Source: Myxococcota bacterium
GTDB taxonomy: Bacteria; Myxococcota_A; Bradymonadia; UBA7976; UBA1532
Direction: 5' to 3'
DNA length: 64,000 nt
NCBI GenBank assembly: GCA_963169045.1
Contig: CAUJDF010000044.1
Span: 1 to 64,000 of the forward strand
The position numbers and the translations under genes were made by a program. The notes under the pieces were generated by a model. That model saw only the letters and a list, made by a program, of their open reading frames with translations. It had not been told where the DNA came from and searched no databases. How positions within the stretch are numbered: position 1 is the first letter of the stretch; every line of letters begins with the position of its first letter. This document shows positions 19,509 through 21,256 of the stretch, one piece after another.

Positions 19509-19811
19509 TCAGCGGTGGCAGCGCGCGCACAGGGGCGGGGTGTGGCACGTCGCGCAGCGGCGGCCGTCGAGGCGCGCGGCGGCGGCATGTGGCGAACCCG
19601 CGAAGCCCGGCCGGTGGTCGCGCGGCGGCGCGCTCCGGTGGCAGCGCGCGCAGGGCTCCGGTCCGTGGCAATCGACGCACCTCTCGGCGGCCCCCCCGTC
19701 GTGCCGCCGCGAGAAGGCGGGCCCGTGGTCGGGCGGAGGCGCGGGACGCTCCGGAGCCGGCGCGGGCGGCGCGCAGGCGGGCACGAGGACGCAGAGGAGG
19801 AGCCACCTCAT
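19509..19811 (-). CDS. Tetraheme c-type cytochrome lipoprotein
   Basis: 100 residues from ATG at 19811, which overlaps the barrel gene's stop in ATGA. The lipobox is VLVPAC. It has four CXXCH heme sites: CVDCH, CARCH, CATCH and CARCH. They form two copies of one module, each with DH-x-P-x-F and an outer His followed by CXXCH-x4-CXXCH, so the gene is an internal duplication of a diheme unit ('paired CXXCH' type). The product should be exported, heme-loaded and lipid-anchored. The tight coupling to an outer-membrane barrel suggests a porin-cytochrome style conduit, but four hemes in 100 residues would span only part of the membrane. Confidence 0.85.
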   Translation of the reverse strand: MRWLLLCVLVPACAPPAPAPERPAPPPDHGPAFSRRHDGGAAERCVDCHGPEPCARCHRSAPPRDHRPGFAGSPHAAAARLDGRRCATCHTPPLCARCHR

Positions 19812-21256
19812 CGCAGCGCCACCCCCAGCGCAAGCGTGGAGAGCGGGCCGGCGTCGGGCCAGAGGTCCGGATGCACTGCCCCCGTCGTCGCCGCCGCGTA
19901 GACCTCGAGCGTGGAGGCCAGGCGCCGGCCCAGGCGCAGCGATCCTTCGGGCAGCAGGCGGTCGGCGTCGACGCGCACCTGGCGCAGCCCGAGGTCCAAC
20001 TCGACGCGCCAGGGGTCGCCACGGAGAGCGCCGGAGACGTGTGCGCCGAGGCTGCGCCGCAGCGTCGGCGCCGGCGCCCGCTCGGCGATGAGCGCATCGG
20101 CTGCGGCGCCCCAGGCCCAGACGCCGCCGCCGCCGCCGACGTCCACCGTGCCCTGGATCCTCGCCGGCTCGGGCGCGTCCGGACGCCGGGCCTCGAGCGT
20201 CGCGTGGGAGAAGAAGCCGGCCAGCGCCAGTCCGGCGCCCGCCGCCGCCTCCCAGCCCGCGGGCGGCGGCGCGGCCAGGACGCCGAGCCAGCGGGCGGGA
20301 TCCTCGAACGGCCCGTCCGCGGCGAAGCGCCGCCGCGCCGAGAGCCAGGCGTCGGCCACGCCGAGGCCGATCCCGATCCGACCGCCGGCGAGGGCCGGGG
20401 CGTGGTCGACCGCGCGCCCCTCGACGGCGATCGCCATCGGGCCCGCGTCCCAGGCGCCCGCCGCGTCGAGGTGGTGAGCTCGGAAGTACAGGTAACGCAA
20501 CGACATTCCGGCGCCGGCCGCCGCGAGCGTCGCCAGGCCGCCGGCTGCGCCGAACGGCGGGTCCGCCAGCCGGCCGCCGAGCGCCTCGAGGCGCACGTCA
20601 TCGCCCAGGCGCGCCCGCCCGCCGTCGGTCACGAGCGGCACGCCACCCGGACCGGCGAGCAGCAGGCGCCCGGCCTCGACGCGCGCGCGGCGTCCGCCGT
20701 AGCCGAGCCAGGCCTCCTCCACGGCCATCTCGGTCCCCGGGCGGTGCGTGCTCGCGAGGGCGGCGTCCTCGCCGTCGACATCGGTCCACGCCGCGATCCG
20801 CACGGCGCCGTCGACGTCGGGCCCCACCAGGCGCGCGCCCTCGAGGCGCCAATCCTGGCGCAGGTCGAGGTCGTCCTCGCCGCCGAGGCGCGCCGCGATC
20901 AGGGCGACGTCCGCGACCAGGTCGATGCGGGGCGGGGACGGCCCGGTCGGCGGGGTCGCGGCCGCAGGCGGCGCCACGGCGGCGGGCAGCGTCACGTCGA
21001 GCACCAGCGCTGCGCCGCCGGTCACGAAGACGAGCCGCGCCCAGATCGCGCGCCCTCCACGCAGGACCTCGACGAGATGGAAGCCGGGCGCCACCGCGAT
21101 CGGCGCCAGCGGCGTGCGCCCCACCGGCTGCCGGTCGACCGCCACCGTCAGCCCGTACTGCGGCGCGCGCACGACGAGGCGCCCGTCGGCCGCGGCGACG
21201 GGACCCGCCCGCAGCCACACGAGCAGCAGCACCAGCAGGGACGACAGGGAACGCAC
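19808..21256 (-). CDS. PEGA-domain plus beta-barrel outer-membrane protein
   Basis: 482 residues from GTG at 21256, chosen because it begins a good signal peptide ([18 protein letters not shown]). Residues ~25-95 form a PEGA domain ([27 protein letters not shown]), usually a surface sugar- or peptidoglycan-linked fold. From ~115 to the end, alternating-residue beta-strands with terminal aromatic or small residues suggest a porin-like barrel. There are no cysteines for heme in the mature part. Its stop overlaps the start of the tetraheme lipoprotein, so the two are made together. The function is inferred as a conduit or scaffold for the cytochrome. Confidence 0.65.

Follow-up and report, generated by a model that had tools for sequence, protein, structure and literature searches.

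In the porin-cytochrome (Pcc) systems of Geobacter and Anaeromyxobacter, of the OmbB-OmaB-OmcB type, a barrel gene lies directly beside the gene of a multiheme c-type cytochrome of the periplasmic side. The periplasmic cytochromes of the complexes quoted from PMC4245776 carry 5–14 hemes, and the Anaeromyxobacter clusters are described there as having no outer-surface cytochrome. MtrAB and PioAB follow the idea of a barrel housing a cytochrome, with 26 strands in MtrB and ten hemes over a length of ~80 Å in MtrA, as given in PMC7198977. Cyc2, as outlined in PMC10654088, is a fused cytochrome-porin with a barrel of ~17 strands.

The gene pair described here lies in the window, i.e. the whole stretch of 64,000 nucleotides that was analysed, and resembles the Pcc systems in its gene layout, with a gene for a predicted outer-membrane barrel directly beside that of an exported multiheme cytochrome; the same adjacency is found in two related genomes (G006 and G011). 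Like the Anaeromyxobacter clusters, the locus is without an outer-surface cytochrome. Its cytochrome, with four hemes in ~87 mature residues, falls below the range of 5–14 quoted above, and the PEGA domain on the barrel is a feature unlike Pcc. The two-component idea is common to MtrAB and PioAB, whereas the 26 strands and ten hemes of MtrAB compare with ~20–22 predicted strands and four hemes here. Membership in the MtrB/PioB family was rejected, the barrel giving no match to PF11854 at E ≤ 1, and four CXXCH motifs do not make an MtrA-type decaheme. With Cyc2 the pair shares a small heme part and a modest barrel, but it differs in its four hemes, its lipid anchor, its PEGA domain, and its two separate genes; the barrel itself contains no CXXCH, and it was not assigned to Cyc2. 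Our reading, held with about even confidence, is that the two proteins would form a minimal, lineage-specific porin-cytochrome variant, a two-protein electron conduit of the outer membrane, with its function inferred.

Organization of the locus

The barrel and cytochrome genes are followed, in tight order on the minus strand, by genes of an IPT/TIG protein and of a β-helix protein, and the gene of IMP dehydrogenase is divergent from this group of four (Table 1). Both the barrel/cytochrome and the TIG/β-helix junctions are 4-bp overlaps, and the gap between cytochrome and TIG is 40 bp. The ATG of the cytochrome shares the tetranucleotide ATGA with the TGA of the barrel gene, in line with the start/stop overlap stated in a preliminary description of the locus, which had placed the pair correctly at positions 19509–21256 and had also seen it as part of an envelope cluster, in agreement with the Pfam matches of the two downstream neighbours. 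No inner-membrane oxidase and no surface cytochrome are encoded in the barrel/tetraheme locus, and the pair has no gene of an extracellular cytochrome beside it. The NrdG-like radical SAM protein and the sigma-54-dependent activator adjoin the TIG/β-helix genes in five other genomes as well (G002, G008, G009, G011, and G012). A search for sigma-54 promoters upstream of operons gave one weak candidate in eight upstream regions and was set aside.

Table 1. Coordinates of the features of the locus in the window.
Feature	Position	Strand	Basis
PEGA + β-barrel outer-membrane protein (predicted), 482 aa, GTG start, signal peptide	19808..21256	-	Pfam PEGA, AlphaFold2, VIA-align
PEGA domain, residues 25–91	20984..21184	-	Pfam PF08308, E 4.1e-5, 23.8 bits
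Predicted barrel domain, residues 109–482, 22 DSSP strand elements (21 with a kinked strand counted as one)	19811..20932	-	Models
Tetraheme lipoprotein, 100 aa, two diheme repeats, Pro-rich linker after Cys13	19509..19811	-	Sequence, orthologs
CXXCH 1, CVDCH, residues 45–49	19665..19679	-	Sequence
CXXCH 2, CARCH, residues 54–58	19638..19652	-	Sequence
CXXCH 3, CATCH, residues 86–90	19542..19556	-	Sequence
CXXCH 4, CARCH, residues 95–99	19515..19529	-	Sequence
IPT/TIG protein, signal peptide, C-terminal GCR-hydrophobic-RRRR tail, likely start ATG 19468	18017..19468	-	Pfam IPT/TIG, E 1.4e-7
β-helix lipoprotein-like protein, start overlapping the TIG stop	16131..18020	-	Pfam beta-helix, E 1.4e-15
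NrdG-like radical SAM protein, conserved neighbour	15508..16119	+	Fer4_12; TIGR02491, 108 bits, below the cut-off of 126
Sigma-54-dependent activator, conserved neighbour	14370..15386	-	PF00158

The PEGA-barrel protein and the tetraheme lipoprotein

The PEGA domain assigned to the barrel protein in the preliminary description is borne out by Pfam, with a score above the gathering cut-off of 20.8 bits; beyond it, the protein has no Pfam match at E ≤ 1, and the result lacks a TonB-receptor plug domain. The AlphaFold2 models, calculated from an alignment of five sequences, are of middling confidence (pLDDT 71.9 with the entire protein modelled and 69.4 with just its barrel part), and both place 22 DSSP strand elements past residue 109. 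Residues 109–482 match outer-membrane barrels in VIA-align at Z 15–18, with an rmsd of mostly 4–5 Å, and the top matches in Foldseek are for the most part OmpF-type general porins (E ~1e-8, modest TM-scores). By a crude alternation score, the barrel ranks fifth among 203 genes that encode at least 200 aa. A search of solved structures by the barrel sequence found nothing. The assignment of the protein as an outer-membrane barrel, predicted earlier, is thus well supported by the models, and the number of its strands may provisionally be put at ~20–22. Since PEGA precedes the barrel, we infer that it is periplasmic.

Matches resembling PEGA are very numerous across the genomes of family f1, and 12 are among the matches listed for the window's own genome with the barrel profile. 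A small lipoprotein-like protein encoded downstream of guaA (25122–25451, plus strand) has a sub-threshold PEGA match (E 0.067), and G002, G006, and G011 have a similar gene at the corresponding position.

As general porins and TonB-dependent receptors both resemble the barrel model, the protein might also be an ordinary porin or transporter of a solute or metal, anchored to the cell wall by PEGA, with the cytochrome reducing or oxidising a substrate such as iron at the periplasmic mouth and the hemes not crossing the membrane. The small number of hemes, four, would suit such an arrangement, as would the existence of barrels without a cytochrome in genus g3; the lack of a plug domain in the Pfam result speaks against it, as do the related cytochromes with 6–18 hemes that are paired with barrels too, a number exceeding the needs of a soluble reductase. 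We consider this explanation improbable in comparison with an electron conduit formed by the barrel and the cytochrome.

The cytochrome is as small as the preliminary description had indicated, with four CXXCH motifs and a lipobox cysteine at position 13. Although it has a slightly negative codon score (-3.7), its orthologs in other genera are conserved at 49–60% identity, and it is on this account a real gene, codon usage notwithstanding. The two diheme halves align at a score of 85, reached by 16 of 5000 shuffles in which the CXXCH motifs were held fixed, which supports the earlier interpretation of the sequence as two copies of one diheme module. In the alignment of five orthologs, each with four CXXCH, all eight motif cysteines and the lipobox cysteine are kept, and exactly four histidines outside the motifs are invariant (His29, His37, His66, and His75); these would give each of the four hemes its distal ligand. 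Neither Pfam nor NCBIfam returns a family above its cut-off. Class III cytochrome c and cytochrome c7 were rejected, PF02085 and PF14522 scoring ~12–13 bits against cut-offs of 22.9 and 24.8, and a search of solved structures by the cytochrome sequence gave only marginal matches, to multiheme and to unrelated chains.

Linkage of the two genes in related genomes

The comparison covered 57 class genomes and 13 family genomes, both counts including the genome of the window, and 377 genomes of the phylum; public relatives are uncultured MAGs. A full barrel domain is present in seven of the 57 class genomes, all within the window's own family, and the same seven hold the only full matches in the phylum, where three more genomes show short, weak ones; an eighth family genome, G009, has the barrel split over two contig ends. 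The orthologous cytochrome (E < 1e-39) is found in five class genomes, and these five are also the only ones among the 377. All five carry the barrel, including two in which the genes are unlinked. The genes are adjacent in three of the five (the window's genome G000, G006, and G011), which belong to three genera, and the 4-bp overlap is repeated in G011, thus occurring in two genera in all. In genus g9 (G008 and G012), the cytochrome heads the TIG/β-helix genes and the barrel is on another contig among other genes, and in genus g3 (G002 and G009), the barrel is without a cytochrome and is directly followed by TIG. In G005, the barrel runs off the contig and the downstream gene is out of view. 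The co-occurrence of the two genes in relatives, anticipated by the preliminary description, therefore stands as far as presence is concerned, and fails as a rule of adjacency and in the two g3 genomes. As judged from gene order and conservation, the pair is real and conserved in part, but not fixed.

The barrel of G002, which is without the cytochrome, has lost 20 of the 38 positions that the other six barrels share without variation, including His262 and His462. These losses would fit a relaxed constraint after the loss of the partner, a weak argument because this barrel is the most divergent sequence anyway.

It could be that the two genes are chance neighbours in an operon with no common function, as the lost linkage in g9 and the missing cytochrome in g3 might suggest; the overlap kept in two genera, the occurrence of the barrel in every genome with the cytochrome, and the pairing of homologous cytochromes with barrels across the class argue against it and make it very unlikely.

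The main rival to an electron conduit concerns the neighbours on the other side. The TIG protein occurs in eight of the 13 family genomes and is more conserved than the barrel (~50% identity against 25–36%), and the cytochrome is directly 5' of it in all four genomes that are readable on that side (G000, G008, G011, and G012), even where the barrel is elsewhere. All seven TIG proteins examined end in a tail with a cysteine, a hydrophobic stretch, and an arginine-rich end, which resembles the MYXO-CTERM surface-sorting signal; the tail has no match in NCBIfam. The tetraheme lipoprotein could thus serve the TIG/β-helix surface cluster, for example by supplying its proteins with electrons, or as their redox partner, while anchored in the outer membrane, with the barrel being an operon neighbour or an exporter of surface proteins, and the position of the barrel directly before TIG in G002 and G009 would agree with this. 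Against it, G002, G009, and G010 possess TIG without the cytochrome, so that TIG can do without it, and the homologous larger cytochromes pair with barrels class-wide. We regard this explanation as possible, although on the doubtful side.

Larger cytochromes of the class and the putative electron conduit

At E ≤ 1e-8, the cytochrome profile gives 25 matches in the class, namely the five orthologs and 20 segments within larger cytochromes that carry 6–18 hemes. By inspection, a barrel-like ORF directly adjoins all 20 of the latter, two cases being weak (in G036 the ORF is shortened at a contig end, and that of G056:C335 is without the motif described below). In a uniform test, with a neighbour scoring at least 3.35 within ±1.5 kb, 14 of the 20 qualify, compared with three of 25 control multiheme cytochromes (Fisher p 1.2e-4). 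The controls are loci of the Cytochrome_C7 family (PF14522) from the same genomes, reduced from 30 to 25 by dropping five that had a profile match no more than 10 kb away, and the three that score also look like barrel pairs; the ±1.5 kb cut hid real barrel partners of G005 and G019. Because the barrel score is crude, and its threshold and the motif were chosen after the above ranking of 203 genes and the first partner barrels were known, the test is supportive rather than clean. The motif GR[QHLM]...DG alone was rejected as a barrel marker, its loosest form matching 196 of 613 background ORFs, a background that contains partner barrels, and a stricter one served only in combination with the score. 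In the phylum, at E ≤ 1e-12, nine non-orthologous genome matches were obtained, eight of them outside the class, and among six of these eight whose loci were read, three have a barrel-like neighbour within 1.5 kb.

The profile of the window barrel aligns in hhalign with that of the barrels of 6–15-heme cytochromes (A9) over 140 columns, with P 2.5e-5 and a probability of 75%, in a region that holds a GR...DG...GGRR stretch. Only a weak relationship is seen with the barrels that accompany 7-heme cytochromes (P 0.0096, probability 4%), and homology to the barrel encoded with the 18/13/30-heme cytochromes of the window's genome (G000:C71) is unsupported (P 0.42); both relationships were rejected. 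Among ten partner barrels scanned with Pfam (E ≤ 0.1), nine are without a match, including that of L121 and part of that of L126 (as L101), and the tenth has a sub-threshold match to MtrB_PioB; hence PEGA was found in none of them. The class pairs (L050, L051, L121, and L126–L129) thus resemble the window pair in that their cytochromes were found by its own cytochrome profile, and differ in the larger size of these cytochromes and in the scanned barrels having no PEGA. In G005, a homologous pair is part of an 11-heme/barrel/13-heme/10-heme cluster; two further genes there seem by eye to encode an NrfD-type membrane protein and an iron-sulfur protein, and together look like a membrane quinol module. 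Barrel genes directly beside 13–15-heme cytochromes are seen in family f7 and in G011 (L126, L127, L128, L129, and L121).

The porin-cytochrome-like role suggested in the preliminary description accordingly gains from the class-wide pairing and from the likeness of the barrel profiles, and is qualified by a gene order that ties the cytochrome at least equally to TIG and β-helix. We favour an electron conduit because of this pairing and the likeness to A9, and because of the barrel prediction, the ATGA coupling, the co-occurrence in all five genomes, and the four invariant spare histidines. It is weakened by adjacency in only three of the five, by the G002 and G009 barrels without a cytochrome, by the small number of hemes, by the lack of an inner-membrane oxidase or surface cytochrome in the locus, by an hhalign probability of only 75% with two other sets of partner barrels lacking a convincing match, and by middling barrel models from five sequences with an uncertain strand count.

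In such a conduit, the tetraheme module would be kept at the inner, periplasmic surface of the outer membrane by its lipid anchor at Cys13 and the Pro-rich linker. It might dock below the barrel or enter it, and PEGA, on the periplasmic side, would serve for docking or for contact with the cell wall. Four closely packed bis-His hemes would then bridge the membrane in part or as a whole, and electrons could be exchanged between carriers in the periplasm and a partner at the cell surface, for which the co-encoded MYXO-CTERM-like TIG and β-helix proteins are candidates. By proportion to the ten hemes of MtrA over ~80 Å, four hemes would extend over ~30 Å, which is borderline for the membrane core. 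A bolder version, in which this is the smallest known two-protein conduit across the outer membrane, a four-heme lipoprotein of ~87 residues plugging a PEGA-bearing barrel, with the non-heme TIG and β-helix proteins replacing an extracellular cytochrome, and a member of a class-wide group of barrel-cytochrome pairs, strikes us as rather unlikely.

A literature search returned nothing that joins the PEGA domain with a cytochrome and the outer membrane, Bradymonadia with a cytochrome, or Bradymonad with multiheme; PEGA with a β-barrel was found only in Treponema papers, and Myxococcota with porin-cytochrome terms led only to other subjects, both as judged by title. If the pair conducts electrons, four hemes would suffice where the known complexes quoted from PMC4245776 have 5–14, and it would offer a very small system for asking how many hemes and what barrel width electron transfer across the outer membrane requires at minimum, with the relatives that have unlinked genes or no cytochrome as natural controls. 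The class-wide pairs may also suggest that extracellular electron exchange is commoner in these uncultured myxobacteria than the literature search indicated.

Two other sets of multiheme genes are present in the window's genome. A lipoprotein-like multiheme cytochrome of 1033 aa, possibly a surface cytochrome of the same genome, is encoded ~39 kb from the pair (60186–63287, minus strand) and is adjoined by a smaller exported lipoprotein-like protein (59262–60176, minus strand). A cluster of 18-, 13-, 30-, and 8–10-heme cytochromes with a barrel of ~400 aa, which looks like a fuller electron-export system, occurs in the four family members G000, G008, G002, and G009 (L046, at G000:C71:48000-64000, L052, L053, and L054).
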